DNA from: Amanita rubescens
Lineage: Eukaryota; Basidiomycota; Agaricomycetes; Agaricales; Amanitaceae
Length of the DNA stretch: 64,000 bases
NCBI GenBank assembly: GCA_015039365.1
Contig: WION01000175.1
Coordinates: forward strand, 46,738 to 110,737
Reading direction: 5' to 3'
Part shown: positions 4,336 to 62,348 of the stretch, in pieces
Layout of the letters: every line of letters starts with the position of its first letter
Position numbering within the stretch: the first letter of the stretch is position 1
Position numbers and translations under genes: made by a program
Notes under the pieces: generated by a model
What the model was told of the DNA's origin: nothing
The model's database searches: none
The model's input: only the letters and a program-made list of their open reading frames with translations

Positions 4336-4623
4336 CTAAGAAAACAGTGTTCTCGTACTAAGCGAGAAGTAGCGAACCACATGGCTTTTCCTGGGTTTTG
4401 ACCGCGTGGCTTTTACGACAGGAGGGGCTTCTTCTTCATCGTCATCATAAAAGTGTGTGGGAATGTTACACGCTGTCAGTTCCGCAGTTTCCCATACCTC
4501 GTCCACCCTTTTCTGCCACATCAACCTACGCGCAGCCCTTGTATTTGAGCAAAAAAAAATCAAGTGGCACAAATACTTATATTGGACGAGAAATCACCCA
4601 CCCAGTGGGCGGTAATCACTCAT
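4336..4623 (-). CDS. Small hypothetical protein, two exons
   Basis: A two-exon model on the minus strand gives 75 aa: exon 1 4598-4623 (MSDYRPLGG), a 60-nt intron with donor GTGATT and acceptor ACAAG, exon 2 4336-4537 to a stop. The protein has WQKRVDEVWETAEL, a short acidic run DDDEEE and a basic tail. No signal peptide, membrane span or known domain is visible. The support is intron phase and coding-like composition only, and the upstream start could lie further out. Confidence 0.35.
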
Positions 4624-39609: not shown

Positions 39610-40250
39610 TACGCCAATGACGACAGTATAATAGGCGGAGGTTCTGCTCAGCGATACCGTGACCAACGTTGTATCCCAATGACGACATTTAAGTATTCAG
39701 GTGAGTATCTGCTCAAATATACCAACGTTGACCGCTAATGACGACGGTCAAATAGGCGGACTATCTGCTCACATCTACCAACATTGACCACCAATGACGA
39801 CGGTCAAATAGGCGGACTATCTGCTCACGTCTACCAACATTGACCGCCAATGACGATGGTCAAATAGGCGGACTATCTGCTCGAATCTACCTATGTTGAC
39901 CGCCAATGACGACGGTCAAATAGGCGGACTATCTGCTCACATCTACCAACATTGACCGCCAATGACAACAGTCCAATAAGCTGAGTATCTGCTCACATCT
40001 ACCGACGTTGACCGCCAATGACGACGGTCAAATAGGCGGACTATCTGCTCACATCTACGACGTTGACCGCCAATGATGATGGTCAAATAGGCGGACTATC
40101 TGCTCATGTTGATGCCAATGTCGACATTCAAATAGGTGGATTATCTCTTCAGTGATGCCCACATTGTCTGCGATGACGACGTTCGAATAGGTGGACGACG
40201 ATCTTCTCAGCAAACATCAACATAATCCACAGATAACAACGTTCAAGTAG
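39610..40250. repeat. Satellite, ~56-bp period, about ten units
   Basis: The word CCGCCAATGACGACGGTCAA followed by ATAGGCGGACTATCTGCTCA recurs about every 56 bp (near 39731, 39788, 39844, 39900, 39957, 40012, 40068), with degenerate units at both ends. Each unit keeps CCGCC and GGCGG about 20 bp apart in inverted order, linking it to the palindrome family upstream. Confidence 0.85.
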
Positions 40251-41093: not shown

Positions 41094-41129
41094 GTGCGTA
41101 TACCATCACCAATCATGATTGATTCCTGA

Positions 41130-42665: not shown

Positions 42666-42763
42666 GCAACTGCCTGACTTTGCGTCGGCAGTTGCAGTGA
42701 TGACTTGACTTTGCATCGGTCATCACGCGTTAGGGTTATAGGGTTGACTATGCGTCGCCCTAT
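42666..42763 (+). repeat. Hairpin-cassette array A (three cassettes)
   Basis: Three inverted repeats in a row share the loop. Cassette 1: arms GCAACTGCC/GGCAGTTGC (42666-42674, 42687-42695), loop TGACTTTGCGTC. Cassette 2: GTGATGAC/GTCATCAC (42697-42704, 42719-42726), loop TGACTTTGCATC plus flanking T and G. Cassette 3: ATAGGG/CCCTAT (42738-42743, 42758-42763), loop TGACTATGCGTC. Confidence 0.9.
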
Positions 42764-43318
42764 GGGATCTGCAAACTGGCCGTTCCCCTCGACAAGGTCC
42801 GTATATATTCATGCCTTATCATCGTTAAACCCACTCATTCCACCTTACAGTGCTCCCGCCATCTCCTGGCTATTTTTTAAACATTCATAGCCTTGTCTCG
42901 TCAAACCATCATTCATGTAGGTACGTTCTCGTCTCACATGTTTTAAATTCAGTAATCTAATCGCGTTTGCTTTCCCAGCTCGTTTAGTAAACCTCGCCAT
43001 GCCCCTTGCGCTTTTTCTGCATAGACTGCATTCAAACAAACGTGAGCGTCCCGTCTCGGCAAATCTGTACTTACAATGCTAACCAAGTTCTTAGATCACG
43101 CATATATCTACTCGAAAGCTCCACCCACCCATGCCGCTTCATCCTACCGCAGCCGGCATAACATGTCGTCTAGAGATAGAGATGGTGGTGCTTCTGTATT
43201 ACACGTTCACACTGCTTGTTTTCACTCTACAGGTACTAAATATATCTCGTTTGCCTTCTATCCATTTGACTGCCTCAAAAAGTAATAACATGGTTCCCTT
43301 ACCTCTTTCCGTGCGTTG

Positions 43319-43378
43319 ACAACTTGCCTTTGCATTGGTTGTTGCGCGTTTGGCCGAGGTTGATTTTGCGTCACCTCG
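43319..43378 (+). repeat. Hairpin-cassette array B (two cassettes)
   Basis: Cassette 1: ACAAC/GTTGT around the degenerate loop TGCCTTTGCATT. Cassette 2: CGAGGT/ACCTCG (43355-43360, 43373-43378) around TGATTTTGCGTC. Confidence 0.8.
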
Positions 43379-43440
43379 CGTGTTTAGGGTTTTTCTTCGG
43401 AGCTGCATCTGACGTATTGCAGGCGTGAATGAAAGTCATA

Positions 43441-43811
43441 AAAGCACCGTAACACCACCCTTAAACTTTTCTGTTTATACAGGTACTCCCTCAGTCTTCC
43501 TGTTCGCGCTGTAACCAATGTTTTGCGCGTTCGTCAGTAAGCCTTCCAAATTTGGCAAGTCGTTCACTTCTCTCCTCCCGCTGCTATCACGTACTCAAAC
43601 GGTGTTATATTTTCGTCCGTAGAGCAGGTCAACATTTCCCTGCAACTAAAAGCACCGTAACACCATCCTTAAACTTTTCTGTTTATACAGGTACTCCCCC
43701 AGTCTTCCTGTTTGCGCTGTAACGGATGTTTTGTGCGTTGGTCGGCAAGCTTTCCAAATTTGGCAGGTGGGTCACTTCTCTCTTCCCGCTGCCATCACGT
43801 ACTCAAACGGA
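43441..43811 (+). repeat. Tandem direct repeat, 208-bp offset
   Basis: aaagcaccgtaacaccaycc...acgtactcaaacgg occurs at 43441-43602 and 43649-43811 with scattered substitutions. A further related pair (atgtttttct..accctacacc) lies near 43867-43942 and 44190-44262. Confidence 0.75.
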
Positions 43812-43947
43812 GATCGAGTAGAATCGCTTTCCTATCCGATGTCAAGAATTCAGTTTCTATTACAGATTCTGTATGTTTTTCTTTTTTTCTACTTTAAAAC
43901 ATCTCTAATACGCTATCAGTGACGCTTCAAACCCTACACCCAAGCAA

Positions 43948-44036
43948 GTGTTTGACTTTGCGTCAACACATGTATCGTTGACCTGACTTTGCGTCGGTCT
44001 TCCATGGGATACAAGGTTGACTTTGCATCGCCTTGT
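43948..44036 (+). repeat. Hairpin-cassette array C (three cassettes)
   Basis: Cassette 1: GTGTT/AACAC around TGACTTTGCGTC (43948-43969). Cassette 2: GACC/GGTC around TGACTTTGCGTC (43980-43999). Cassette 3: ACAAGG/CCTTGT around TGACTTTGCATC with flanking T and G (44011-44036). Confidence 0.88.
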
Positions 44037-44283
44037 CTTGTGGGGTCTCTGGCGCAATCGTCTCGTGCCTGCAAAGCTTATTTTGCCGTTCCTGGACGAT
44101 TCTCTTGCTGCCTTTTCTGCTGAAGAGCGTCAAGTCTCTATTTAGTAAGCGATTGATATCCAACGTTAAGAATTCGCTACGACGAGATTCTGTATGTTTT
44201 TCTTTTTTTTTTCTACTCTAAAACATCTCTAATATGCTATCAGTGACGCTTCAAACCCTACACCGGGTTCTTTTGCAGGTCTC

Positions 44284-46660
44284 TCAGCGATGTGAATCGC
44301 GCAATCGTCTCAGTGCCTGCAAAGCTTCTTTTGTCGCTCCTGGACAATTCTCTTCCTGCCTTTTCTGCTGAAGCAAGCTAAAAGCTCGCACGGCATCCGA
44401 CTTGGGTTTCTTTGCCGAGCTACCAGTCACACTTTGCACCTTCTGTCTAGCCTCCTCCTCCTTGTGAGTGACATTTGGAAGATGTCGTTTCAATGCGTGG
44501 AAAACGTCTAATGCTGAGAAAGCAGGTGGTGCAGCCGTTGCTGATGATGGCTCAATATCGGGTGCGGTTGGTGTACCCGACGGCGGTATGGCGGGTATTG
44601 AAGGCGGTTGCATGACGTCCGTACGTATCACTGTTCCCGACTGCATGGCGGGTTTGATGATTCTCGCGTAGGTAACAAACCATTCATGACATCGGGTGCG
44701 GTTGGTGTACCCGACGGCGGTAGTGATATAGCGCGCCGTGGTGCTGCTGCCAAAGTACCTGACTGTGGCATGGAAGGGGGTCGCATGACGTCCAATACTT
44801 GGGTATGTATATCTGTTCCCGACCGCATGGCCGGTTTTGATGATTGTTGCATAGGTAACAATCTCGGCCAACGAGAATAAGACCCGCATGGGTCTTTGCC
44901 ATTCTCGTCATTTGCACCCAAATTCTTCTCTTCTTCGGAAGCTGCGGGCAAGCGGCGATGCAACGGGTATTCATGGAAGTGATGGTTGATGTAATTTTTG
45001 TCGGTTATGAGGGGTTCGTCGTTGGTACCTACACTCGAAAACTCTGCTTTTTTTGGTGATGGTGGGAGCGATGATGTATCAGAATATTCGCCAGGCAATG
45101 ATCCTGTCAAGGAGCAGTCGTAGCCGCTGTGGGGCACTGCGTATTCCCTATCTGCGGCTCGAAACATCTTTGCAATGTCGTCAGGAGTGATATCGACACC
45201 CCATGTCCATTTTAGCGATGGGCAGGGATCACATCCAGGTATCTTTGTCATTGCCGCTGTCGATGTTGTTCCTGCTGCCGTTGTCGATGTCGTTCCCGTT
45301 GCTCCTATCCCCGACGCAACGTAACTGGCCGATGTATTTTTCGCTTCCTTCAATAGAGCCTCTTCGTACAGTCGGTTGTATGTGTATGCCCGACGTGCGT
45401 AGTTCCGTTGCGTGTAATCGAAAGAGCTTTCATGCAAGTGCGTCTGATTTCGCAATTTATGCAGATATCGCAACGCGTTCATGCCTACAGTCCGGTATGC
45501 TGCACAATGATCACAAGGAAAGGAAGAAGTGGCAACAGGTGCCAATTGTCGATGACTGCTAGGCATTGCGGCCAAGCCTTGCTTTGGTCTCCACCATGAA
45601 TTCTGATATTTTCGGTGGATTTCCATGCATTCGGGCAACATCTTGTCATTGATGATGTCGCATGGACTTGGAGCCACGTCTTTTGTCCACCAGTCGCAGT
45701 GGTAATGTTCGACTATCCCAGTTGGGTGAATAGGATGATTGCCTGCGTCCAGGCAAAGAAGGAACTCTGTATTCTTCCAGATAGCTTCGCACTTTTCCTG
45801 CTGTAGCCATAGAGCCAGGTATCGGATGACGATTGGTACGTCGACAATCTGCCCGCTTGCCGTCGACAGCCCGATCCAAGTAAAAGCGTAATTCTGGAAA
45901 TAGAATCACATTTGACCGACATAATGTATGTTTTCGCTTACCAATTCCATATGTAGGCCATCCTGAATCCAATCCATTCTAGCGCGGTCATCGCGCTTTG
46001 AGGCATTATCTAATGCGTTACAGATCGCTCTTAGTCGCGATTCGCAGTATTCGACAATCTCTTGCGGTTCATATTCCATGGAAGCTTCGTAGTTGCTCTC
46101 CTGCATCTGACCGGCATCAATCTCCTTGATCCGTTCTGTTATGTCATGAATGATCCGTTCATCCATGCCTTGCCGCAACTGTGAGAATGTTCTAAACACC
46201 ACGTCGTTATCCACTTGTGCCCGCGACTCGGTGTGGTACAAGCGATGTGCGGCATCCTTGTAGCTCAATCCAAATTTTTCCTGTACGGCTTTTATTTCGG
46301 CGTGTCCCAAGAGCAGCTCCCGCTCTGTTAATGACTAATGATCGCCAAAATAAATATTTATCAACATATGTGCATTTAACTCACCGGCAACGGCGGAGCC
46401 ATAATATTGCCGTTCCCGAGGAGAACATGCGGCAAATCTTCCATTGATAATGGCTGTAATCAATGATTACCGATGTCGTAAGTTGCCGAAAATTGACTTA
46501 CGCCACTGGATGCTTGAAAAACCTTGTATGTGCCTTTGAGTTCTTGTGCCCGTATTGCTAGATCTGTTGCCTTTACTAGGAATGTGGGCACCAAGTATTG
46601 TTTTCCATCTTGGTATGTGCCGATCGTGTACCCCGGCGGTATGTTCCATGTCGGCTGCAT
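44284..46660 (-). CDS. Island protein of unknown family, Ser/Pro/Thr-rich C-terminal half
   Basis: Minus-strand exons 46502-46660, 46385-46453, 45942-46334 and 45893 downward join in phase 0 over 44-50 nt introns. The start is MQPTWNIPPGYTIGTYQDGK. Exon 3 is helical (FGLSYKDAAHRLYHTESRAQ). Exon 4 has WIGLSTASGQIVDVPIVIRY and HCDWW, then Cys/His residues and repeats of T/S/A. The frame of exon 4 stops at 44628 inside an internal duplication (unit LLP...SSKPAM.SGT / PPSGTPTAPD). The second unit has lost one base, after which the frame reaching 44284 (ALDVFHALKRHLPNVTHKEE) carries on. So either the protein ends at ~628 aa or a one-base error hides a ~720-aa product. It diverges from the 46772 gene across 111 bp. 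Confidence 0.55.
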
Positions 46661-46771
46661 TTGATTGATAGTGATCAGGATAAACCTGGGAATGCTTATG
46701 TAATGAACGCGACCACATGACTAATGATCAAACTCTTTTTTATCTCCATTTCGCGACAGCCAGACCATATC

Positions 46772-49197
46772 ATGAGTGACGTAACCGACAGTCTCCGTGA
46801 TAAACTCTTTCATTATGAATGCATGATTCAACGAGGGATTAAGGTCGGTAACATTTTGCAATTGATATCAAATGATACCAAGCGAATAGTAAGTCGTTAT
46901 TTTATCTACCTTATTTATCTCAAAGCCGTCAGCTTGAGACTTTTGAAGCGAGTACCGATGCGGCCTTGGCGCCTATTTTTAATGAATATCCGCTTGTCCA
47001 AAATTTCGTCATCAGCTGGGTTAACGAGGGCGAAGAGCCAACCTTTTTGGAGGATTGGCAAGAGTCGCTTCGTCGAGGCCAGAATCAACGGTACAGAAGA
47101 CCAGCGGCCGCACCTCGCACTCGTCCAACGACACCTCCAGAAGGCGATAGCGATCAGCCGCTTGCTGGCATCATATCAAGGCAGTCCCGTCGTTCGGCTC
47201 TACCTCGCGAAGATAACCTGCCCACAAGGACATCGGCACTCGCACCTTCGCGTCGTCGGGTCACAGTTTGCGAACCTGTTGATCCTTCAGAATCCGACGA
47301 GTCTTCATTCCCTTTGTCAAGACGGAAATCAAAGGCCAAGGCCGCCAAGCCCCTACCTTCTGACGCAGAAATGACGGCAACGGATGGCGAAACGCTTGGA
47401 AGAAAAGTTTATCACCGACGTCAACCAAAAGCAAATGGTAATATACACGATCCAGCGTGCAGTCACTGTCAACGTCGGCGCCTGCAATGCTTGGAGGATG
47501 AGTATGGCGGCGCATGTGTGCCATGCAAGAAGAGGAAGACGGGTTGTACGCATAGTGGCGTGAAAGGAAAGCGACTATCCAGGAAAGGAGAGGTGGGGAG
47601 CGAGACAGAGAAGGAGGTTGAGGAGCCAAGCAGGAAGAAGCGACGGAAGGTGAGGAAGAATACCGATACGGACGCAGAGGGTTTAGCCAAAGTCAAATCA
47701 AGCAAACGGCGACGGGTAGAGGATAGTAAGTCGCGTTTGGTTCTCATGCAGTAATTCATATTTAATGTAAAGTAGTGGAGGATCGTCAAAAGACAGCAAA
47801 AGAAGCGGGTAAGTTGCGTCCAGTTCCCATTCAGGCCATTCATATTTAATGTGAAGTAGTGAAGGATCACCAAAAGAAGGTAAATCAAGATGACCCGCCG
47901 TCGGGACTGGAAGAAGCGGGTAAGTCGCGGTCGCGTTTGGTTCTCATGCAGTAATTCATATTTAATGTAAAGTAGTGGAGGATCGTCAAAAGACAGCAAA
48001 AGAAGCGGGTAAGTTGCGTCCAGTTCCCATTCAGGCCATTCATATTTAATGTGAAGTAGTGAAGGATCACCAAAAGAAGGTAAATCAAGATGACCCGCCG
48101 TCGGGACTGGAAGAAGCGGGTAAGTCGCGGTCGCGTTTGGTTCTCATGCAAGTAATTCATCTTAAACGTGAAGTAGTGGAGAGTCGTAATCCAGATGATC
48201 CGCCGTTGGGACTGGAAGAGGCGGGTAAGTCGCGTCCAGTTCCCATCCCATTTATATTTAACGTGAAGTAGCAGATGACCCGCCAACGGAACTGGAATAT
48301 ATAGATGAGGAAGAAGCAGGTAAGTCGCGTCCAGTTCTTATGCAAGTAATTCATGCTTAACGTCGGTAGCGACTCAACAAGTTAATGCTGAGAGGATCGC
48401 GTCTAGTTCTCGTGAAAGAAATGAAGCAGTGGAGGATCAGGCTTCTGCAGGTACGCTAGTTCTCACTCAAGCAAATCATCGTTAACCTGGAATCAGTTGA
48501 GGAAAGGATGCGCCAACAGTTAAATACCGTGGAGTCTTACTTTGAGCACCAAGTAAATGTCCAAGCCCGGCGATTTGATGTCGAATGTCAAAGAATGCGT
48601 CACCTTGAAGACATGGTGCATCGAGTTGGTGACCAACTAGGCTCTATTGTCACTAGAGCTGGAACACGGATGACGGCTCATGAAGTCAATGCGGCCGAAC
48701 GATTGGAGCGTTTGGAAAAGCTTGTTGTGCACCTCGTAGAGAAGGTCGGCGAGGTTTGCGAATATCTCGGTCTTGAGGCAAACAAGCTGGATCGACTGCC
48801 ATCTATTGAGAAACGGCAGGTTCATGTGACATGGTTTGGGACGCCTTGGCCCAATAATGACATGGCTGAGTTCCTGGATCAAGTTGCCGCAGCATCGACG
48901 GAAGATGCTGAGAACGGCAATCAGGTTGTTGCATCAACGCCGCCTGTATCACATAGCCAGGTTGTTACTGAACAGCAAGAACCCACTGTCCCGCCAGATC
49001 CAGTTGAAACACCACTGCAAGGCGGCCCAGCCGCTCCGATAACTTTGACGTCATCGCCTTGGACGCCGTTGAGACTACCACCTCGGACGGGGGCTTTACA
49101 AACGACTTTAGATCGTTATATATCTCACGACAATAATGGTGCTCGGGCAAAGGGGAAAAAGAGGAAAACTGGTGATGGCCAACGTCAGAAAAAGTAA
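46772..49197 (+). CDS. Zn2Cys6 binuclear-cluster protein with amplified mini-exon array and C-terminal coiled coil
   Basis: Ten exons: 46772-46888, 46933-47725, 47776-47808, 47860-47919, 47976-48008, 48060-48119, 48177-48224, 48272-48319, 48370-48450, 48497-49197; 657 aa, all phases consistent. Residues 215-244 hold C-x2-C-x6-C-x8-C-x2-C-x6-C (CSHCQRRRLQC ... CVPCKKRKTGC), the GAL4-type zinc cluster, followed by a long Lys/Arg-rich stretch. Seven mini-exons of 33-81 nt follow, all with phase-1 introns at both ends, encoding repeats like VEDRQKTAKEAG and VKDHQKKVNQDDPPSGLEEA. The last exon is heptad-like (RLERLEKLVVHLVEKVGEV) and ends in a basic tail KGKKRKTGDGQRQKK. Probably nuclear and DNA-binding; the target is unknown. 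No sign of decay. Confidence 0.75.
47726..48125 (+). repeat. 200-bp tandem duplication containing two introns and two mini-exons
   Basis: 47735-47919 recurs at 47935-48119 with, as far as I can see by eye, no difference. The unit carries intron, 33-nt exon, intron, 60-nt exon. Flanking introns of the array share GTAAGTCGCGTCCAGTTC and a TTTAAYGTGAAGTAG acceptor end. Confidence 0.9.
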
Positions 49198-49240
49198 CAT
49201 AAGTTGGTACATATGTGCACAATGCATACTCATTTTATAA

Positions 49241-49617
49241 TTATAACGAAATGTCCTTCTTCATAATCATCCCTCTCGTGAGAAGTTCGGCTAGATGCTC
49301 TCTATACTGTAACCACCCTCGAATCACTGCCTTTGCCGGTACACCAAGTTCATCCGCCGCGCAATCCGCAGTGCTGTGGAAGCAGTCATACCATGGACCT
49401 TGCGCGAGCTCCATATTCTTATCGCATTCGCAGGTAAAAGCTTTGGCCGCAGCTCCTTCGCAAACGCCGAGCTGATTGGCGGCAGATTTGATAATTGCCG
49501 TTAAACAGTCATACCAACAGATGGTGGTCGCGCCTCTTATCTCTGATGCAGAGGTAATGTTACTTGTCGTTTAGTACTAGGCAAACGTTACTTACCTAGA
49601 AGTCCGTTGGCGGGCAT
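49241..49617 (-). CDS. Small protein with duplicated WYDC segment
   Basis: Two exons, 49596-49617 (MPANGLL) and 49241-49542, 53-nt intron (GTAAGT..CATCAG), 107 aa. Exon 2 has no ATG of its own, so simple frame searches miss it. The protein repeats a ~45-residue unit: ICWYDCLTAIIKSAANQLGV and GPWYDCFHSTADCAADELGV, each followed by a Cys or Ala-rich segment, and ends AELLTRGMIMKKDISL. No signal peptide. It converges on the 46772 gene with 43 bp between stops. Function unknown. Confidence 0.6.
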
Positions 49618-50850
49618 GGGATTCGTGTTGCGCTCTTGTTCCCCATGCCTGGTTTATATACGCAAAAGGTGAGTAGAACATTCCATGTATTCCATAAGGC
49701 AGCGCAGATCGGTTCTATTGTGCGACGCTTCTATTCAAGCAAGGCTTCTATTGTATAGAATGGATTCTCAAGCCCGGCCTACCATTAACGGTGGTCATTC
49801 TGCCCAGGGTGGCATTCTGGTATTCCACGCGGTACGTTCCAGACTCAGTGCGGCTAGACCCAAAACTCGTGCAGCTCTACCGCCCTTTTAGGATGCGGCA
49901 AAACCCGACGTATGCTACTGACGGCTTTAGCGATCGTGCCATCAGCCTTCTTCCGTAGAACGGGCATTGCCTAGATCAGGTAATGTCGCAGCGTCGCTTC
50001 AGATCATATCATTGCGCCTTCAACCACCTTCCAGGTAGGTAAGTTTCAGCATGATGTTTTACCATTAACGAGCTAATGGTGATCATTCTGCCCAGGTTGG
50101 CTGCACTACTTGCCTCTCACATCGGTACGTTCCAATCTCAATCGTTTTAACAATTGCTGAACAATATGAAGATTGGAACAGGCGCATTGTCTAAATCAGG
50201 CAATGTCACAGTGACATCGCACATCCTTCTCTCCCATCACCATTCTCCCGGCTCCTCTTACAAGCCTGATTTTGGATCGGATTGTGCGATGACGACAGGT
50301 GGGGTTGACTATGTCCAGAAACTAACAAAATCACTAGCAACACGATATAGAATTTGCCTCTACTGTGGGCTGCTAGTCAAACACATCTGTACGTTTCCGT
50401 CTCAACCATTTTAATGATGATGAAGAATATGAAGATCAGGACAGCGCACGTCCGGCTCTCTTTCTCCTCATACAAGCTTGACTTTGCATCGGCTTGTGCG
50501 CCGACACTTGACTTTGCGTCGGTTGTCTAGGTGGGGTTGACTATGCGTCACCTTGTCTTGATTGGAGCGGGCTTCTATCCTTGTTAGCAGTACGCATTTT
50601 ATGCCAGGGCTCTCCACCTCATGTACGTCAAAAACCCTTTTTGACACTTCACGAAATAACCCGGTTTTAGATGTCTTGCGGTTGTCTAGGTGGGATTGAC
50701 TATTGAGCGGGCTGTTTGCATCTCGTCCGTAAGCATCCTGTTTATTCAAATTTCCATCTACCACGGCTATAAATAAACCCCCACGGTGGTCCCCGGGTTG
50801 TTGTTTAGGTTTATTTAGAAATACAAGTTCAACCATCATCGATCATCACC
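49618..50850. other. Intergenic part of the island with gene scraps and hairpin array D
   Basis: No complete gene. The word aacccgacgtatgct near 49902 recurs near 61695 as acccgacgtatgct, linking this spacer to the one downstream of 61554. ggtggt/gattcattctgcccaggtkg occurs twice (49790, 50080). Array D lies at 50472-50554 and the promoter of the 50851 gene follows. Confidence 0.4.
50472..50554 (+). repeat. Hairpin-cassette array D (three cassettes)
   Basis: Cassette 1: ACAAGC/GCTTGT around TGACTTTGCATC (50472-50497). Cassette 2: imperfect GACAC/GTTGTC around TGACTTTGCGTC (50503-50527). Cassette 3: weak GGT/ACC stem around TGACTATGCGTC (50535-50554). It lies ~300 bp upstream of the plus-strand gene at 50851, and a decayed piece (gtgggattgactattg) lies at 50690. 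Confidence 0.8.
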
Positions 50851-51788
50851 ATGCGAAATACCATCGATCTTCCAGTTCTCGGTCCAAACACTAATTTGAA
50901 CCTCCCAAACCCACCTTCGAATCCACCAACCAACAAAGATTTAGCCAAGGCTAGTTTGCTGCGGCATTCTGCAGTGAATGCTTATTGTAAGTTGATTGAT
51001 GAGCGCCTATGGGTTCCTTACAACAGTATTCCTAGCCTTGGACAGGGTCAACGATGATGAAATGGCTGGTATTGCCAAATATGAGCACAAAGTGGTCGAT
51101 ATGGCATCAGGTACGCCTAATATTTCTTTGTTGAATTGACACGTTCTTACATCACAGGTGCACCCCCTTGGTTCAAGGAATCGATCAAAGAGGTCGTCAA
51201 TGATGCTATCAAGGATAGCATCAAAGCAAGTCTCATCGAGGTCCTCGGCCTTTGCGCTGGCCAATCCACGAACTTGCCCCAAATCCTAACCAACGTCCTT
51301 CAACCTATCAAGAACGACATCCGCGTGATAAATGATGCACTTCAACCTATCAAGAACGACATCCGCGCGATAAATGATGCACTTCAACCAATCAAAAACG
51401 ACCTGGCCATGATTAAACGTCAATCTGCCATGGTACGTAGGGTTTTTGATATCGTATAAAATTGCTTATTTTATTCGGTAGGTTCATAATCACACATTTG
51501 TCATATTCCACACGGACCCTTTTACCATCGTCCCGTTCCCAGACGGCGAGGATCCTACAAAAGAACCGGTACGTTATGATTTTTGTTTAAATGTGGCAGT
51601 GACTTACCGTTCTTTAGCATCAACTTCCACCGCTCTCTTCCCTCCAGGCCGTCAGGAACCTCTCGGATAATGACGTCAAAACGTATTTTGATAAGTACCG
51701 AGGAACGACACGAAGACATGCTAGAACTATTGAAGATAAACGCGCGGCAATACTGACCATGTTGGGCGTTAGTATAAAGTTGGATTGA
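50851..51788 (+). CDS. Island protein with LQPIKND repeats
   Basis: Five exons: 50851-50986, 51036-51110, 51158-51432, 51482-51568, 51618-51788; 247 aa; introns 47-49 nt, phases consistent. The middle has three copies of a 14-residue unit (LQPIKNDIRVINDA, LQPIKNDIRAINDA, LQPIKNDLAMIKRQ) encoded by 42-bp direct repeats, amphipathic and probably helical. The C-terminal part (FVIFHTDPFTIVPFPDGEDP, LPPLSSLQAVRNLSDNDVKT) resembles short hypothetical proteins common in Agaricomycetes. No enzyme motif. It converges with the TET/JBP-like gene (147 bp between stops). Confidence 0.7.
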
Positions 51789-51935
51789 GTTCATTTGTAA
51801 TTTGCCGTATACGTACTATGCAATATATGTGGTTGCGCTTAGAAAAGAGAGATTAAAGAGAGGGTAAGGATATCGTGTAAGTCTCCATTCAATCTTTTAT
51901 TGCGTTAATTAAGCATCATCATCCAGCTGTCCTCA

Positions 51936-53261
51936 TTATTCATGCGAAACAATACATGGTACGGATGCTACGCTGCGTTTCTGGCTCTCCTTCCAATCGT
52001 TCTGCGAGTCGACCATGATATTCTTGTCGGTAAAGCAGGTCAACGCCAACCGAATACCGCTGGTCAATGGCGCGCTCATGTGACCAAGAAAACTGGCGTT
52101 AAAGGCGGCAGCTTCACCTTCCTGTAATGGTACCTTGGTGGCATAGTTGGGGGTACACAGTTCCCCGCCTTCGAACTCGCCCATAGGGAACACCCAAGTT
52201 AGGCCGGCGTCGTTTCTATCTGTGTGCATGATATCACTTACGCCGTTTGTGACCGAAACGGCTGTAAAAGTTCCACCAAAGTTCAGGTCGGGATAATTGC
52301 GAAACATTTGTTTTTTTTCCATATATTTCGCCATCCTATAACTATTAGACAGATTTCCAACTGAATTAATCAAGAAACTCACCGGTCCCTATGCACCCAT
52401 TCCTCTTTTGTGTAATGTTCCATCAAACGCTTAACCGGAGGAGCGATATATTTCTTTACCGCCCGCATGAAATCCAAGCATTTGATGGCTTGATTCAAGT
52501 TTTCGCATCGTGTATCCACCGTAACACCAGCTTCCGTGTCGTACCGACGCCAAATCCCGAGATGGTACGATTTGCTGGTGGTCGATCGCGCGCTGGACGA
52601 TTCCTTGGTGTTATGTGCTGTTGGGTTCGTCTTTATGAATGCTTCCCATCGTGTCTTTAAGACTTTTGCGCCGTTCTTGCTCAATACGTTGACGAACTTG
52701 TGAAACAAGAAGAGAGGCTGGATCCCGGCGAATATCTTTTCTTTTTGAATGTCGGCGATGTAACCTTTCTCGGTGTTGGCGTCGAAGAAGACGGATGGGC
52801 ATGGGACATGTAAGGTACCCGTCTGGGTTATGTACCCAGAGGTGTCCATGTCGTATTTCCACATTTTTGCCTGCATTACCTGATTCTCGTTGCGGCAGCG
52901 TACCAACTCCCCTGGTGCGGCGACAACGAGATACGTTTCTGCGGACGGTCAGTTATTACATTTAATCAATTTTGAATGAACGCGCGCACCCCATTTCGCT
53001 TCTGCCGCTGCTCGCGCTGCCCTTATCTTAGGCGCGTCTCTCTTTCTCTTCGCCTTTTGCGCTTCCTTGCTCTTCCTACCCTGTTTAGTTCCCGTCTTTA
53101 CAGAATTCTTAGAGACGCCTTCTGGCAAGTCTTTTGCGGGTTGAAGATAATAACGCAAGTTTTTGCCTGCAATCGACGTCAGTAATATCACAAATGTCTC
53201 ACATGTACTTACCGCCTCTGCACTTTTTCTTCTTTGGGTTCTTTTGCGCGATGTTGGCCAT
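51936..53261 (-). CDS. 2OG-Fe(II) dioxygenase, TET/JBP-like fungal type
   Basis: Four exons: 53213-53261, 52990-53166, 52383-52938, 51936-52335; 377 aa; introns 45-51 nt. The N terminus is Lys-rich (MANIAQKNPKKKKCRGG, KEAQKAKRKRD), probably nuclear. The last exon carries the double-stranded beta-helix signatures: HTD at 298-300 (H-x-D iron ligands), FPMGEFEGGELC after it, distal His at 346 (LGHMSAPLTSGIR) and Arg 356 as the likely 2-oxoglutarate contact. FPMG.FEGG after HxD is typical of the 2OGFeDO JBP1/TET group expanded in Agaricomycetes, whose relatives oxidise 5-methylpyrimidines in DNA. Substrate here is inferred. The frame is intact. A second ATGGCCAACATCGCG copy at ~53450 shows that the 5' region was duplicated. 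Confidence 0.72.
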
Positions 53262-53582
53262 GGGTAGAGCGGTAGAATTGTCGCGTTGTTGCCGACGGAT
53301 TAGGAAGTGACCGTGACCGATGCCCGACTTAGTAAGTGACTGACGGGTGATACCCGATGTCAATTGAATTGATACCCGCATCCTCCGCCGTCACCACTCC
53401 CCGCAATGATTATATGAATCTCATATGTACTTAATACCTCTCGCGATGTTGGCCATAAAAGTGTTAATACCCAATACAATTGGTAAGTGACTGTGACCGA
53501 TGACTGACAGTGATGCCCGATGTCAGTTGAATTGATACCCGACGTCAGCACAGCCACATCCCCTGCCGTCTCTTACTTCGTA

Positions 53583-54250
53583 ACCACCACGTCTATCCCC
53601 GCAACGACGTTATTGCCCCACGGACAGTGTGAAAGAGTGCGCAGTATCTTGCGGACACGTAGACGCCCGGCATAAACACAGTTGCGGGTAATTGGCGTGG
53701 TTGAATTAGGAGCGGTGAAGAAACCGTTCATAAAATGTTCCAACGGTATGTGTTCAACTTTCTTTAATACGCTAAAGTTGAGCACACATAGGCTTGCCCT
53801 CCCACGCTCACCACCACGTCTATTCCCGCAACGACGTTATTGCCCCACGGACAGTGTGAAAGAGTGCGCAGTATCTTGCGGACACGTAGACGCCCGGCAT
53901 AAACACAGTTGCGGGTAATTGGCGTGGTTGAATTAGGAGCGGTGAAGAAACGTTTCGGCAAAAATTTCATTTGGTATGTATAATTGAACTCTGTTTAATA
54001 TGCGATTGAGCACGCACACAGTGTATTTCGGATATGTAAACGTTCCAACGGTACGTGTATCGATATTCAACTTTCTTTAATACGCTAAAAGTTGAGTACA
54101 CATAGACCTGCCCTCCCACGCTCACCACCACGTCTAACCCCGCAACGACGTTATTGCCCCACGGACAGTGTGAAAGAGTGCGCAATACTTTGCGGACACG
54201 TAGACGCCCGGCATAAACAGTTGCGGGGTAATTGGCGTTGGTTGGTTCAA
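53583..54250. repeat. Triplicated ~130-bp block upstream of the dioxygenase gene
   Basis: ccaccacgtctatycccgcaacgacg...gtagacgcccggcataaacac occurs at about 53583, 53811 and 54122. The minus strand of each copy encodes the same peptide (YAGRLRVRKILRTLSHCPWG), so the unit is probably an old exon, tandemly copied with its flanks. A separate duplication (gatacccgatgtcaattgaattgatacccg) lies at 53350 and 53513. Confidence 0.8.
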
Positions 54251-54327
54251 CATTTCCTTTTTTGGCCTCTTCGTCCCGGTCCCTTTCAAGTTGGTCCCAG
54301 CTCGTGCCCGCCGTGTTTACGCCCAAG

Positions 54328-54419
54328 CACGCGTTTGACTTTGCGTCGACGCGTGTGTCGGTGACTTGACTTTTGCGTCGGTCATTCGTTGGGTTCAAGG
54401 TTGACTGTGCGTCGCCTTG
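54328..54419 (+). repeat. Hairpin-cassette array E (three cassettes)
   Basis: Cassette 1: CACGCGT/ACGCGTG (54328-54334, 54349-54355) around TGACTTTGCGTC. Cassette 2: TGAC/GTCA around TGACTTTTGCGTC (one extra T). Cassette 3: CAAGG/CCTTG (54396-54400, 54415-54419) around TGACTGTGCGTC. Confidence 0.9.
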
Positions 54420-54644
54420 TCTGTAACCGGCCCGGGTCTTCTCCGTTCAGAGAAAGAAATTTTCATTAGGTATGTATAATTGAACTCTGTTTAATACGCC
54501 ATTGAGCACGCATACAGTGATGTAAACGTTCCAATAGTACGTATATCGATATTCAACTTTCTTTAATACGCTAAGCACATATAGGCTTGCCCATGGTTTT
54601 CCTTTTTTTTTTTCAACAGTTGCTCAGCCGCGCTTACGCCCAAG

Positions 54645-54726
54645 CACGCGTTTGACTTTGCGTCGACGTGTGTGTCGGTGACTTGACTATGCGTCGGTCG
54701 TTCAAGGTTGACTGTGCGTCGCCTTG
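54645..54726 (+). repeat. Hairpin-cassette array F (three cassettes)
   Basis: Cassette 1: CACGCGT/ACGTGTG, one G-T wobble where array E has G-C. Cassette 2: TGAC/GTCG, one wobble, loop TGACTATGCGTC. Cassette 3: CAAGG/CCTTG around TGACTGTGCGTC. It ends 95 bp upstream of the helicase start codon. Arrays E and F sit in a larger duplicated segment (taatacgctaa.., aagcacgcg..). Confidence 0.88.
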
Positions 54727-54820
54727 GCTGTAACCGGCCCGGGCCTTCTCCCGACGCCGCGACGCGCCCTCTTGGCGTGATGCGCATTGACGTCATACAT
54801 CTATCCTCATCCCTCCCATC

Positions 54821-57800
54821 ATGCTCGGCAAACGCTCTGCCCCTACTGCCCCTGCTGCCCCTGCCCTCAAGAGATCCAGAGCCGACAAAGAGAATCAAAA
54901 CCCGTTAGTATGCCATATGCGTCCATGTCCATCATACTAACCCTTCATTCTCTAGACAAACCCGCACGTAAGCCTCATATATGCGCGTTTTGTCGGCACA
55001 ATGACTGATCCCTCATCCTGCAGAGAGTTGGAATCTATCGTCATTACCCTTGCATATCCCAACTCTATTACCACGCCGTTGCTTCAGGCTACTGGCTTTA
55101 TCGTCAACACTGAGCACCGAATATTATTATGTTCGGCTTGCCAAGAAGTTATCGATCCTGGGCACTTCCGATCCCACATCGTCCAAAAACACAAAAATCT
55201 CTCTGCGCCTGCCGATCTACAGACCAAGTTTGACAAGGACGTTATTCCTCAAGTCCCACCTTTCGCTACCTTTCCCGTTCCCTTTCCAGAGTCTCCCGTA
55301 CATCAGATCCATGGTCTTGAGCCTCCAAAGGTGGAGTATATGATCTGCAAGGACTGTAACCACGGGTATACGAGTTCAAAGACGTTCAACAAACATCCTT
55401 GCGTCAAACGCGACTATATCCCCAATCATTCATTTTCTGCCGTTCAACGCTTTTCAACCAATCCTCAACATTCTTGGTTCCCTGTCACCCTCCTGGAGTC
55501 ATCACCGCCGCCACCTCTGACTCGATGGGAGGCATTCAAGGAGCAGCTCAAAGCCACGCCTCCTTGTTCGGCCGATGCGTCCAATACCGACAACTATCGC
55601 GTCCTCCGCCAGATTTTGCACAAGGAGCGGTGGATTGAACATGTCCAAGGCAAGGACCTGGCAAAGCTGAAAGAGTTGGTCTCTTTTTCCGTCAAGAACA
55701 AACCTTTGGGTAGCCTTGTTCGGCATATACATGCGTACCTTGCGCATGTTCAAGCTCAACTTACGGACAAGTACATTCGGCGACTGATAGGAACGCGTCC
55801 GGCTACGGAGCATGAGCATACCTTTGCTCTTCATCACTCGGATGTCGGCTGGGACACTCATCGCAAATACGCCTATGTCATGGCTGCCGCCCTCTCCCTT
55901 CTCATAAACAATGTCAAAAACCCGTCGCAGCATTACTCTTTTGATGTTCCTTTTGACATTTTGACATTATCAGAGTCTCTCTGGGAAGCGCTGAGTGCGG
56001 AGCATGAGGAAGATGAACCGGAGGAGTCGGGAACGGGGGATTTAGATGACGAAGAGGAGGAAGAGGCGGAGGAGGAAGAGGAAGAGGAAGAAGACAACGC
56101 CAACGATGACGGTACACCTCATAATGCATACAGCCCTTCTGAGGCGAGGCCGCCGCCCAAGACTAGCCCCAAGGTCCAACAGGCGCTAAACTCGTTGCTC
56201 CTGGCCCTATTCTCACAAACGGCCTACAAAAACGACCCGTTTTTCAGTCCATTCACCCGTTTCCTCGTCCTCGCCTCTGTCAATGCTAAGGGAGAGTGGC
56301 AAGCAGCGGGTCGCATAACACAGAAGATTGCGTCAATCTTGTTCATAGGACGGCTGGTCTTTGCTCAAAAGTTGCTGGATACAAAGGATCAAAATCCGTC
56401 GTTTAACACTTTGAGGTATGAGATGCGTCCATTCTCTAGTTCTTTTCTCAATCGTTATAGTGCGTATGAACTTGCCGTCAAGCCGTCACTGCAAGAGGGT
56501 AGCGAGAGCGTCATGCCGATGCTCTACATCCTCTTGCGCTGTTTCTTGAGCATGAGATCGGCCGACGACAGTATGTTGGTCTTTAACGCACCCGATCTCA
56601 GCGGTCAGTCTGCCATTATTGGTCAACACCAACTTCATGTGCAGGCCATCGGAGACGCGTTGCGGGAACTGATGCAAGATATCAAGAAGGAACTCGACGA
56701 ACTCTTGTTCCATCAACCAGAGTTTGACATGCCAGAGGATTTATTCATTCATGATGAACCCAGGTGCAAGGAGTCTGGGTATAGCTTCGCCTCTGATCCA
56801 CGCAATCGTTGGACCTCGCGTGATGCGAAATCTCTTGCTCATCATGTCCTGATTACCGACCATCTTTTCCGACGTTTTTGTATCGAGATGGAAGACGGGC
56901 GCATTCTGTGGCAGTCTGTGGCTTGCATGGATCAAATGCGGCTTATCTATAAGGTCCAAGAGAGCCTCGCCATCGCTCTCATTCTGAGTTCAGGCCAGCC
57001 GGCCAGAGGTACTGAGCTGGCAAGCCTCTTGTATGCCAACATCCCCGGCGGATCTATTCGCAACGTATTTGTGTTATTCAACATGTTGATATTGCGTGGT
57101 TCGTACAACAAGACCAGTTTCGCTACTGGAAGGGACAAGACGATGGTCAGAGTGCCATTGATCGAAATTGGCAGGCAGCTCATTCGGTTCCTCGTCTTTG
57201 TGCGGCCTTTGTATTGCATCTGGCAACGCCAATTCAGGCCAAAAATGAACTCGAATGCGACGTATTTCCTCTTTGCTGGGCTGGAGCGAGCCGTGACTTC
57301 GGACGACTTGTCCTTTGCGCTGCGACAATATTCGCTCAAACGATTCAGCATCCCCTTGGGCCTGAGCCTTTTTAGGCAATACATGGCGTTTATCACGGCG
57401 TGCAATGAGCCGCTATTCGCATCTGTAAACTCTTCCAAGGGAACGACGTCTGCACAAGAGCAATTCGGTCATACGGGAGAGATGGACCGCATGCATTATG
57501 GTGGAGATGAACGTATTCCAGCCGGGATGGACCGCTATACGTTCATGGCTACTGCGGCTGTCAGCGGAGTTTTTCATATCCTCTTTGGACATGAACCGCG
57601 CGTCTTGCGGATGCTGGAAAAAGGGAACGGTATGCGGGCTCGCCACTTGGCCACAATACATGGAATTCGCCAACCAACTGCTTCATTACAGCCTCCCGTC
57701 CAGCAACCTCATGTAGCGGCCGCCAGCATCGACACGGCAGCGCTGGTGATCACCAATAGACTACTTCCCCCACTGGTCAATCACCTCAATCGATCCGTTG

Positions 57801-59853
57801 CACATGCACATGCTGCCGTCGTTGACCTTTTTTGTCCGCTAAAGGTCAAAGAGGCGCCAATCCCCTGCGTTGCTCGCCATTGCACTCACCCAGCAATAAC
57901 GAGGAAACTTCAAGCATTTATAGGGAGTGGATTTAAGAATGTCGAGCAGGCTATGGTGACGCAATTGATGTACGAGGGCAAGGAGCACATTTTATATATA
58001 TCTCCGACAGGTGCGTGTTAGTTTTACCAGTACTATCTCATTCTAAACCGCTTTGCGCAGGGTCGGGGAAGACGCTTCCCGGTCTTTTCAATGCCGCGCT
58101 TCTGGACGAAGGTCGGGTAACGTTGTGGGTCTTGCCTTTACAATCAATGCAGCATCATTACAGAATGCAGTGCAACAAGTTCAACATTCCGTGTGAAACG
58201 TGGACGCCCAGGTCTAGCCTTTTGACACCAAAGGCGAATGTTCTTGTGACAATAGAGCTCACACAGCTCCAACAGTTCAAGGACTACGTTGGGAACTTGC
58301 GCGTAAGAGATAGATTGGCGAGGATCATCATTGACGAAATTCACCTCGTCCTTACTCACTCCTCCTTCCGCTCTGCAATGGAGTCCCTCACTTGGATGGG
58401 AGCCGCGGGCTGTCAGCTTGTTCTTCAGACAGCCACGCTTCCAGTTGTTCTACAAGAACGGCTTCTCAAAGCCGTCGGCCTTACGACGTGTCAAGTTGTT
58501 CGAGCCAAGACTTGCAGGCCTAACATATCTATGAATGTCATCAAGTGTCCAGCCACATCGCTTCACTTGATCGTTAAACAGTGTTTTGACGATGCTTTAG
58601 CGTACTCCACGGAAGGCCGAGTCATGGTCTTTTGCCGTTCCAAATCCAAGGCCGAGGAAATAGGAGGGCTACTCCAGATTCCAGCCTGCCATTCTGGCAT
58701 GGACAGGGAGCAAGTTGATGCCGTCCTAAATGAACTCTACTCTGGCACAAAGCGGGGCGTAGCGTCAACGAGTCTATTGGGAGTCGCGGTCGATATTCCA
58801 CAGGTTACCCACGTCATTCACGTCGAATGCCCGTACGATATCATTTCGTACGCCCAAGAAGCAGGACGAGCGGGGAGGGACGGGTCTCCCGTATGGTCGC
58901 ATATCATTCTTCCTCAAGGTCCGCCCAGACGTGAGGACAAGGATGAAGAGGATGTCTTTGGAAAGCGAATTTTAGAAGAAATTTTGCAAGACGATCAAAC
59001 TTGTCGACGTCTTGTCATGCAGGTATTTTTAGATGGCGCGGCCGAGCCTTGCTCTATGATGGATGGCGTTGCGCATTTTTGTGACGTGTGCATGGCTCAG
59101 AGCTTGCACATGCCTGACAGACAGACAAGTTCAGCGTTCCCTTGGACGAGAGTTCGACACATTTTGCAAAGTCTCTCATTGCCTCCTCAGCTTCACTCGT
59201 ATCATTCCTCGACGGCTCCTCCTCCTTCTTCTGTACATATACAAACGGCAGCGGCCCATGCCTCTCGTCATCAGCCGGCGCCTAAACCACCTAGCGAGGT
59301 CCACAAAAGACTCCAAAAAGCCCATCAATTAATAGAACGCTTGGCGCTCACATGCGTCGGTTGCTGGCTTCGAGGCTTTGAAGGCAGCCATCTACTAGCC
59401 GATTGTCCAAGACGGGATGCGCCCACCGATAAAAATTCAGAATGGCAAAAATGGAAAAGTGCCATGAGGCAAGCTTGCGCCAAGCTCAAAGGTGTATGCT
59501 ATAGCTGCGCGTGCTCTCAGGATGTGAGTAGAATAATTACCTTTTTTGTTTCTACGCTCTGACAATCTTTCAAGTTATCATATATCAATGGCGGGCAAGA
59601 AAAAATCTATTACCATCATCATGGAAGCACGGCAGTCGATTGCCGTTTCCGTCAAGTATTACTTCCCATGGCGTTTATCGTCGAAACGGAATCAAGTATA
59701 GCTCAAGAGTTCTTGGCGTCGCCGCTTCGGGGAGGGGTCCCGATGAACTATGAGATTAATCCGTTCAAGAAGTGGATTTGGGGGCAGGCAGGAGGTGTCC
59801 CGAACATCATTAATACGCTTCTTTTGTTTTCGAAAACGCGTCATAGTCCATAG
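54821..59853 (+). CDS. Telomere-linked-type RecQ-like helicase with N-terminal OrsD-type zinc fingers
   Basis: Five exons: 54821-54903, 54956-54967 (12-nt micro-exon), 55024-58010, 58061-59523, 59575-59853; 1607 aa, uninterrupted. I prefer the start at 54821 over ATG 55001 because it adds a basic NLS-like leader (KRSRADKENQNP) and all phases match. Residues 68-88 form C-x2-C-x11-H-x4-H and 140-158 C-x2-C...H-x-C, the OrsD/DUF3505-like finger pair of fungal helicases. An acidic run (~345-370) follows. The helicase core starts with Walker A SPTGSGKT across intron 3 (~1025-1032), motif II DEIH (1119-1122), motif III QTATLP and motif VI SYAQEAGRAGRDG. The C-terminal module (TCVGCWLRGF ... YHHHGSTAVDCRFRQVLLPM) is shared with the next gene. 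Such helicases are often subtelomeric; 3'-5' unwinding is inferred. Confidence 0.85.
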
Positions 59854-59977
59854 TATAGTTACAACAGGTGTCAAACGACGTTGTGACGCACCGTCGATCT
59901 CTCAGCTGTCAAAACCAAAACTCCGACGTCTTCCGCGGCTTCGCGTTTTCTATCTCTTCCTCTCATCTAATCTATCA

Positions 59978-61554
59978 ATGTCGAACGCTACCGAATCCCT
60001 CTGCACAAACTGCAGCAAGTACAACGACGGGACGGCAACTGCCAGTTCAAGAAAAGACCACAAGAGAACTTGCAAAGAACAAGTCGTCGAGGTATACTAT
60101 CCAGGCATGGCTGGGTTTATCCCCCTGCCCCGAAATCCTAATACTGGTCGGTTCCACTGCATCCGGTGCAACTGTCAGCGAAAAAACTTGCAAGAAATGA
60201 AGGTATGTTGTTCATTGTTTTCGGGGTTTTTTTTTTGCTCAACAGCCGGTTAGCGCCATGCCAAGAAGTGTCAACAACGTGATGAAGAAGAGACTGCCTC
60301 TGATGATGACGATGAAGAGGAAGGGAGTGAGTATCCAGCCGATACTATGTATTCAACGCCTCATCTGACGCGCATATAAGCAGCGGCGGCGACTGCCTCC
60401 GATGACGAGAGTGAGTATCCAGTCGATATGTATTCAACGCGTCATTTGACGTCCATAAAAGCCCGCCATGTCGAGGAAAAAGGGGCTGATACTGCCTCCG
60501 ATGACGAGAGTGAGTATCTAGTTGATATGTATTCAACGCGTCATTTGATGCGCATATAAGCCCGCCATGTCGAGGAAAAAGGGGCTGATACTGCCGCTGA
60601 AGAGGAAGAGAGTGAGTATCCAGCCGATACGTATTCAACGCGTCATTTGACACGCATATATGCAGATAAAGCCGAAGAAAACGAGGTCAGGGAACTGACC
60701 GCAGACGTGGAGTCCCCACGCCGACTTAAAAGGAATTTAGAAGATCCATGCTTGGACGACGTCCAAGCGAAGAAAACAAGAGCGGACTATTCATCCGCTG
60801 TAGAAGAGTACCAGCAGGCCATTGCTTCGGCTACGCTCAAATTCGCTCATGCTGTGCGACCTCACCGTTCCTTTTCAACTCTGTTCTCGTCCATAGGACA
60901 CGTATTAGACGGGTGGATGGACGAAGTGGAACCTCAGCCCAACGTTCAGCCCATGCCGCCGTCACCATCACCGCAGCAGCCGACGGATGAAGAAACGGTG
61001 GTGGCGCCGATGCCTAGGTCCACTCCGCCGCCGCCGCTCGATCCTCACACTCTCCGTCAATGCCTGGATCGATTGCGGCTCCATTGCGTCATCTGCTGGG
61101 TGAATGGGGATGAACCCCATCCATCCACCTCCAACTGTCGCAAATACGACCCGGATTTGTTTAGGGTTTTTGCAAGAGAAACAAAGTACAACGATGGTAT
61201 ATGTTTCGGATGCGGAATACCGCAATTCGTAAGTTTATTATATTCTAATGTTTGCTGTCCACTGACCATTCATTTCAGTGGAAGTACAACAACACGCGTT
61301 TCCACGGAAGCACTTATGGCCGGAATTGTGGGGACGAAAAAACGATGAAAGGATTATTCGCGATGGTGATCCGCAATTCATCGCTCAATGCGATTTGCGG
61401 TAGTCTCATTCCCGGTCACGGAGGCCGGGAGGTCAGTAAAGATGACCTCCTGAGGTGGTTAAACACCTCAGACAAGAAGATGGAAGGGGCTGCGCCTGCA
61501 TCACTCATTTTGCAGGCGGCCATTTCCATGAGCGGCATGCCTAATGAATCGTAA
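59978..61554 (+). CDS. C2HC finger protein fused to the C-terminal module of the helicase family
   Basis: Seven exons: 59978-60202, 60254-60326, 60380-60409, 60462-60509, 60561-60611, 60666-61228, 61279-61554; 421 aa, phases consistent. The N terminus (SLCTNCSKYNDGTATASSRK) and HCIRCNC...MKRHAKKC suggest two Cys/His clusters. Three mini-exons of 30, 48 and 51 nt with phase-1 introns encode repeats such as TRHVEEKGADTASDDE. The last two exons (HCVICWVNGDEPHPSTSNCR, GICFGCGIPQF, FHGSTYGRNCGDEKTMKGLF) match in layout the C terminus of the upstream helicase (CVGCWLRGFEGSHLLADCPR, CYSCACSQD, HGSTAVDCRFRQVLLPM). No ATPase motifs. It begins 124 bp after the helicase stop. It may be a helicase partner or competitor; that is inference. 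Confidence 0.7.
60327..60665 (+). repeat. Tandem intron/mini-exon array
   Basis: Four introns of 51-54 nt share GTGAGTATCYAG..GATA..GTATTCAACGC and end ..CGCATATAAG or ..CATATATGCAG. The exons between them share CCCGCCATGTCGAGGAAAAA and GATACTGCC. Unit length is about 100 bp. Confidence 0.9.
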
Positions 61555-62347
61555 TTATTATTTGTATTTGATTAATATTCCGAGGCCTGAAAGGACTCGG
61601 TACGTATGCTACGCGCTCCAGGCAATTCCCGCTCAAGTGCTCTTCGGTCAAACCCGACCTATACTCTGAGACGCGCGGCAACTCCGCTTTTTGGCGAGAC
61701 CCGACGTATGCTTGCTGGCCACGGCAACGTGCTCTTCGGTGACAACATCTGCTACGCTGCGCCTTCACACTTGGGGCATTACTCGCTTCGACGAGACGCG
61801 TGACCATGATGCTTTTTAGATTTGGACGCGACCTTTCCCCAACGCATGCCAGGCGCAGAGCCTTGGATACAGATGCGGAATTGCGCCTCTTTTTGGTCTC
61901 GTTCACAGTTCGCCCTTAATTGTTACACGCCCCTCTGTTTTTCGCGTCCTGATATCAGCTAACTCTCATACCTGGAGTCCTGACGACGTCCTCCCTTGTC
62001 ATCTGTCGACAAGATGACTCTCTTCTCGCTGCACCTCCTGTGGCTAACATCATCCTGCCGACAAGTTGCGAGACATCCGTCCTGTTCTCACGCATACTGG
62101 TAACCCCGGACTCCGGAGGAGATATTGTGTAGGGTGAGTTGTCGCGTTATCCGCGCAATGCCCTCTTCTGACGTGGCGCGCAGAAAGAGTTATTCAGGCA
62201 TGCCCACATGTTTTTTGTCTCATTCCCGCAATGTAATTATTATTTGATTAATTTTAAATTTTATTGTGCGCACTGTGACCTTTTGTCACATCACCTTTTT
62301 TGGCTGCTTCGTTGCCTCTGGTGATCGTTGATTGACTTTGCGTCGTC
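61555..62347. other. Spacer without a supported gene
   Basis: No coding exon is visible. Words such as gcgctccaggcaattcccg and acccgacgtatgct recall the 49.9 kb spacer. Hairpin cassette G closes the spacer. Confidence 0.4.
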
Positions 62348-62348
62348 A
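62329..62348 (+). repeat. Hairpin cassette G (single, short stem)
   Basis: TGA(T)/(G)TCA around TGACTTTGCGTC (loop 62333-62344). The downstream arm overlaps the first base of the ATG at 62348. Confidence 0.6.

Follow-up and report, generated by a model that had tools for sequence, protein, structure and literature searches.

Helicase genes repeated near chromosome ends are already known in fungi: RecQ-like subtelomeric genes are described in Agaricus bisporus var. burnettii, in a study that also cites Ustilago, Magnaporthe, and Metarhizium and leaves the role of these repeats and their mode of spread open (PMC7473861). Terminons are giant retroelements that are added to chromosome ends and have a ribozyme fold at the end by which they attach (PMC6431247). 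Here, we analyzed a stretch of 64,000 nucleotides of the basidiomycete Amanita rubescens (assembly GCA_015039365.1, contig WION01000175.1, positions 46,738 to 110,737), hereafter the window, which carries on its plus strand a repeated, telomere-terminal element with a helicase gene. Our analysis shows, at the level of sequence, that this element of about 29 kb contains a paralogous family of hairpins of about 30 nt, the cassettes, whose arms were seen only inside it. The covarying cassettes point to an undescribed structured signal in an element dwelling at telomeres.

Eighteen hairpin cassettes lie in the window, all on the plus strand and spread over seven sites. An earlier note on this DNA, made from the sequence alone, had placed seven plus-strand sites here, and each was found again at its position. 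Five of them have three cassettes, as also described there: array A (42666-42765, hairpins at 42666-42695, 42697-42726, and 42736-42765), array C (43944-44038, hairpins at 43944-43973, 43975-44004, and 44009-44038), array D (50470-50558, hairpins at 50470-50499, 50500-50529, and 50529-50558), array E (54327-54422, hairpins at 54327-54356, 54358-54388, and 54393-54422), and array F (54644-54729, hairpins at 54644-54673, 54675-54704, and 54700-54729). Site B (43316-43381) comprises the degenerate B1 (43316-43345) and B2 (43352-43381), and the last site is hairpin G (62324-62353). Allowing at most one mismatch, the core TGACTNTGCRTC has 16 matches in the window where 2.06 are expected, and none of 100 shuffles reached 16. 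The two cassettes beyond these matches are B1, with two core mismatches, and E2 (the second of array E), whose core has 13 nt. Decayed remnants occur at 50258-50287 and 50297-50313, which make up a plus-strand partial copy of array D (50258-50313), and at 50679-50703. Movement of cassettes, suggested by a copy of a flank lacking its array (44244-44264) and by fragments ending in core loops, was considered and set aside, deletion being an equally adequate explanation.

From 5' to 3', a cassette consists of an arm, Y, a bulged T, GAC, the loop TNTGC, RTC, R, and the second arm. What had been taken for a constant 12-nt loop is better resolved into the bulged T, a stem of three pairs (GAC/RTC), and a loop of 5 nt. 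The pair next outward of this short stem is Y-R in all 16 aligned cassettes, and complementary flanks adjoin the core in register for 16 of the 16 TGACTNTGCRTC matches, in runs of 3 to 10. Cassettes C2 and G have arm runs of 4, and D2 an ungapped run of 3, longer pairing requiring one bulged base. The arm pairs listed in the earlier note are present in the sequence. Inverted repeats within a subtelomeric repeat might serve as precursors of small interfering RNAs (siRNAs), but stems do not exceed 13 bp in these hairpins, which is short by the standard of known Dicer substrates. We regard such a role as extremely improbable, and the earlier suggestion of a precursor of PIWI-interacting RNAs or siRNAs found no support in hairpins of only about 30 nt. 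A covariance scan with Rfam 15 at gathering score returned no match in the window or in loci L090, L091, L092, and L097, and a search for tRNAs found none. Neither the core string nor such hairpins were found in the literature searched, outside which lie most papers of subscription journals and bioRxiv preprints.

The two sides of the stems change together. When 16 cassettes are aligned without gaps, 88.5% of the cells are paired; shuffles give 67.7% and slid controls 26-47%. Cells with double-sided changes number 44, where shuffles give 15.2 +/- 3.1, and the covariation score of 0.669 compares with 0.248 in shuffles and 0.082-0.192 in slid controls. Double-sided changes affect 8 of the 12 pairs, a count also reached by 174 of 500 shuffles, so the cell count and the score bear the weight of the argument. 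The mean run is 7.06 nt for a cassette's own arms (17 cassettes) and 2.26 when arms are swapped between cassettes. A run of at least 4 is found in 46 of the 272 swapped combinations and at 2.1% of all window positions. The stems of C3 and D1 are alike except for one exchange of G-C and C-G, and the pair-preserving change from G-C to G-T between arrays E and F, reported earlier, was verified in the sequence. Because of the covariation and of the pair-preserving arm differences between copies, the view that stem pairing is under constraint while stem letters change is supported. The selection on a structured RNA or a DNA cruciform put forward in the earlier note is thus upheld as regards pairing. 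The cruciform itself appears disfavoured, because it would fold both strands, yet what the arms and closing pair tolerate is plus-strand G-T, equivalent to A-C on the minus strand; the innermost pair shows the opposite tendency.

The cassettes belong to one repeated block. In the 75.7-Mb genome, the strict 14-mer TTGACTDTGCGTCG occurs 48 times, all within this block and all in the plus orientation of the element, on contigs that we call C64, C85 (that of the window), C298, C396, C495, C516, C638, and C693, whereas the reversed control has no occurrence. Pairs of cores spaced by 10 to 40 nt (45, against none for the control) are confined to the same eight contigs. A looser 12-mer occurs 188 times, against 30 for its reversed control. 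The 33 stretches fetched with 12-mers outside the block (31 different places) hold 23 distinct sequences, which look like chance words because their arm runs are only 0 to 3. In viral contigs, the two-core pattern had three matches, all of them short tandem repeats without arms that scored at most 11.1 bits with R1, our covariance model of the cassettes. Among the findings that the earlier note had named as speaking against it was an origin of all copies from one duplicated block without compensatory changes. Only its first half applies: the strict copies do go back to one block, but the cassettes in this block are diverged and show compensatory changes.

The kinds of mismatch bear on which strand folds. 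The closing pair of the 16 cassettes is T-G in 11, T-A in three, and C-G in two. Arm pairs further out include, on the plus strand, six G-T (four of them supplied by D3) and one A-C, and the innermost pair is T-G once. In total, the non-Watson-Crick pairs of the window cassettes are 18 G-T and 4 A-C on the plus strand, and therefore this strand probably acts single-stranded, a conclusion that we hold with moderate confidence. When hairpins are folded one by one, 12 of 17 do better on the plus strand. Between copies of the element, six arm or closing pairs differ: two belong to A1, one each to C1 and C2, and two to the hairpin that comes first at the E and F places. Every state seen at these six is either a Watson-Crick pair or G-T on the plus strand. 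The variable pair of C1, for instance, is T-A, T-G, or C-G depending on the copy.

The reading we favour, tentatively and at slightly less than an even chance, is that the cassettes act as RNA hairpins in transcripts of the element, with the plus strand as the single strand. It is favoured because of the G-T tolerance and of the positions of F and G: array F stops about 92 nt short of the ATG inferred for the helicase gene at 54821, and the 3' arm of hairpin G contains the A of an inferred start codon at 62348. The location of D, F, and G upstream of plus-strand genes, as the earlier note had it, holds for F and G, which are upstream of or at genes, and extends to E, but was not confirmed for D. 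In this model, one protein would bind at each hairpin, a small site with a variable stem, and read the conserved bulged U, the GAC/RUC stem, and the UNUGC loop. The hairpins would lie in element transcripts directed toward the telomere. Those of array F and hairpin G would be located in the leaders of element genes or at their start codons and may control expression or mark the RNA of the element. Arrays of three hairpins could provide multi-site and stronger binding. The reader would probably be a protein that the element itself encodes or one that has adapted to the element.

Several observations weigh against this reading. It is weakened because none of the arrays from A to D is near a recognised plus-strand start codon, and because of the innermost pair, which is C-A in three of the 16 cassettes. 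This pair also varies between copies: C3 has C-A in C85 but C-G in four others, the last of the three hairpins at the E place has either C-A or C-G, and B2 has either T-G or C-G. Whole-array RNA fold z-scores favour the minus strand in five of five arrays (-7.84 against -5.07 for A), as do DNA fold z-scores in the two arrays tried (A and E). An intron that would unite E and F in one leader was rejected, its acceptor being missing in C64 and C638. Counted per base in the flanks, C/T and A/G differences amount, for example, to 0.0254 and 0.0245 in C516, 0.0244 and 0.0307 in a first stretch of C396, and 0.0318 and 0.0171 in a second one. The C/T rate exceeds the A/G rate in five of the seven comparisons having more than two differences, and a mild mutational strand bias may thus add to the excess of G-T. 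Also speaking against a strong constraint, stems and flanks differ between copies at similar frequencies in C516 (4/144 against 56/1358) and C396 (3/54 against 68/1945), the values being 0/53 and 85/5893 in the C64 stretch that contains D. There are also decayed copies, such as B2 of C298, which lacks its arm, and C1 of C516, which carries an insertion.

The similar rates of change in stems and flanks, the decayed copies, and the existence of fragments that end in the loop would all be expected if the hairpins were a mutational by-product devoid of function, created by template switching that perfects quasi-palindromes at replicating hairpins. However, template switching makes Watson-Crick palindromes rather than lasting plus-strand G-T, the core and its orientation are kept at seven of seven sites, and arms are lacking from all 23 distinct 12-mer cores that were examined outside the element. 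We find this origin distinctly improbable. The location of array D upstream of a TATA-like site near 50770, which also counts against the RNA reading, brings in another alternative, duplex regulatory sites with TTGAC n5 GTCR half-sites, which would lie in the promoters of element genes and be bound by a protein dimer. The inner TGAC/GTC is itself an inverted repeat, and the arrays at the E and F places precede a gene and vary in copy number. Arms of 3-10 nt whose letters are unrelated but covary would be needless for a duplex-binding protein, though, and the closing T and G are non-complementary in 11 of 16 cassettes, which makes such sites quite unlikely.

The element that hosts the cassettes extends on the plus strand from 41126 through 64000 and on past the window end. 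Alignment of the window to other contigs gives a sharp left border at 41126, where the first bases, CTGAGCATCATGCCC, follow nine unlike flanks in nine contigs (C64, C85, C179, C257, C298, C396, C495, C516, and C693). The nine left ends fall at the identical base, and the contig ends at most 28 kb away on the right side. No telomere repeats were found at the left junction in any of the nine flanks. The copy in C638 lacks the left end, and its block runs into (TTTAGGG)n at the contig end. The length of about 29 kb is a composite of the 21.2 kb from the left end to G in the window and the 8.2 kb from G to the telomere in C638. Right-truncated copies measure about 135 bp (C179), 330 bp (C257), and 1.7 kb (C693). 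In C179 (locus L092, C179:12400-14800), the left end of about 135 bp is followed by telomere repeats, AGGGTTTAGGGTTTAGGGT, and then by a different hairpin-headed element, an order that reads as sequential additions at a chromosome end. Copies that are anchored on the left, truncated on the right, and capped by telomere repeats are the legacy expected of end-added elements and, accepting the contigs as assembled, we infer that the host is a telomere-added mobile element.

The left end itself is structured. A plus-strand hairpin at 41130-41162 has a 15-bp stem with one T-G pair and a GAA loop (-15.3 kcal/mol and a z-score of -6.1 for the DNA fold of 41126-41161), and a second, GC-rich hairpin follows at 41164-41191 in the DNA fold of 41126-41195. 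The 25-nt heart of the first hairpin is found at eight places in the genome, and C693 has a variant loop. Directly after the left end, from 41200 to 42400, there are imperfect repeats of about 200 bp whose plus strand is rich in GTCGTCGTC and CCCCC. Just outside the element, at 39706-40106, seven 56-bp tandem repeats carry the inverted pair TTGACCG/CGGTCAA. The telomere repeats are of the plant type TTTAGGG, as in locus L090 (9098-9279), and three consecutive TTAGGG have no match genome-wide. Near the telomere of that locus (3156-8468), repeated small frames show the conserved cysteine pattern C-x2-C-x6-C twice.

The inferred helicase gene lies on the plus strand at 54821-59562, its start and exons being predicted from open frames at 54956-58021 and 57937-59562. 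Pfam matches place an OrsD domain in front, then a middle part, DEAD, and Helicase_C, the latter with an E-value of 7.2e-17 and DEAD slightly under its cut-off. The front part has four copies in the genome at 99-100%, with telomere repeats seen on one such contig (C638), and its relatives reach 62% in an ENA contig and 32% in Coprinellus. The helicase had no relative in viral contigs. A structure prediction of the front part was poor (pLDDT 48.8). The middle part holds R, K, R, H, and Y in the order of tyrosine recombinases, with an H-Y spacing of 9, and these residues are invariant in three sequences. Compared with R...K...HxxR...H/W...Y, the catalytic set of these enzymes, the second box of the motif lacks its H. 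Searches with this part gave nothing in Pfam and nothing credible in the PDB (the best match, to a chaperonin, has an E-value of 0.49), and structure prediction did not confirm the motif either.

These residues bear on the main rival of the RNA reading, in which the cassettes would be hairpins of single-stranded DNA on the strand of the telomeric 3' overhang, exposed by resection, and their fold would be recognised by an element protein, the recombinase-like helicase. Folded attC sites and phage N4 promoters are read as folded single strands. The plus strand is the TTTAGGG strand, the element begins with a plus-strand GAA-loop hairpin that is stable as DNA, and the middle part of the helicase carries the recombinase-like motif. 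Against this, the recombinase-like part has neither family nor credible structural match and the model is poor, G-T tolerance is equally given by RNA, and the DNA folds of A and E score better on the minus strand. We consider this explanation unlikely. A bolder version, in our view improbable, is that a helicase fused to a tyrosine-recombinase-like part reads folded sites on the 3'-ending telomeric strand, the end hairpin joining chromosome ends and the triple cassettes serving rearrangement or control. If true, this would be a eukaryotic counterpart, at telomeres, of the structure-read recombination of attC sites.

Two other genes were recognised in the element. Pieces of a Tet_JBP-like oxygenase gene lie on the minus strand at 51936-53299, with a Pfam E-value of 0.00057 for the frame 51936-52388, under the curated cut-off. 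A gene without assigned function starts at 62348 on the plus strand and continues beyond the window end at 64000, with an inferred first exon (62348-62399) and a 50-nt GT-AG intron (62400-62449). Homologues occur in Panaeolus, Phlegmacium, Mycena, and others. In the one from Panaeolus (P0010), a similarly short N-terminal part precedes the shared IG-FDG stretch, which supports the inferred start codon inside the 3' arm of hairpin G, whereas the three other relatives viewed (P0006, P0007, and P0008) have different starts. A Pfam scan of a subset of the element frames gave no reverse transcriptase, but such a scan could overlook one, as Pfam also missed the reverse transcriptase-linked frame of the neighbouring, Penelope-like element in L092.

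A second, separate element also starts with a GAA-loop hairpin and is found at 12 places in the genome. AGGGT precedes its first bases in 11 of the 12, with two or more telomere repeats in at least five. In C516, a piece of it precedes the helicase-bearing element. In C89, about 3.3 kb of it lie before the telomere, with an open frame that contains reverse transcriptase motifs, including YIDDVF. This frame (186-2696 on the plus strand of locus L097, C89:1-3700) is directed away from the telomere and the locus adjoins (TTTAGGG)n. By motifs assessed by eye, without a family match, we judge this element to be Penelope-like. Its fetched pieces (L097-L104) had no cassette at E-values up to 1 in a scan in which the chance 12-mers L003 and L004 scored 17.8 and 17.6 bits.

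Iron-responsive elements and the operator hairpins of phage coat proteins combine a short stem, a single bulged base a few pairs below a small conserved loop, and a variable lower stem. The cassettes have this shape, with other loop and bulge letters and an arrangement in arrays of three. Integron attC sites are folded single strands with variable stems and conserved unpaired bases, features that the cassettes share. attC sites are tied to the integron integrase and to cassette exchange. The consensus of the present cassettes provides a handle to fish out a protein partner and to seek the element in other fungi.

Concerning the host, the helicase core and its close copies at chromosome ends were found here as for the subtelomeric RecQ-like genes of Agaricus, another agaricomycete with several near-identical copies at such ends (PMC7473861). 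No domain beside the helicase core is reported for those genes in that paper, and the word hairpin is absent from its main text, whereas the present gene has an OrsD-type N-terminus and its element a fixed hairpin end and arrays of cassettes. Terminons and other telomere-attached, endonuclease-deficient Penelope-like elements, as described in PMC6431247, resemble the element in their anchored end, telomere-side truncation, and telomere-repeat cap, as well as in large size, extra genes, a structured end, and stacking with other elements. In particular, the fixed structured end on the centromere side, the variable truncation on the telomere side, and the telomere cap (C179 and C638) are all found here. 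The end is a simple hairpin without Rfam match, and we do not file the element as a Terminon because its nine junctions are not to telomere repeats (0/9), whereas the separate Penelope-like element does attach to them, and because no reverse transcriptase turned up in the frames scanned. With their fixed hairpin end and truncated, telomere-capped copies, such helicase repeats become testable as telomere-added mobile elements.

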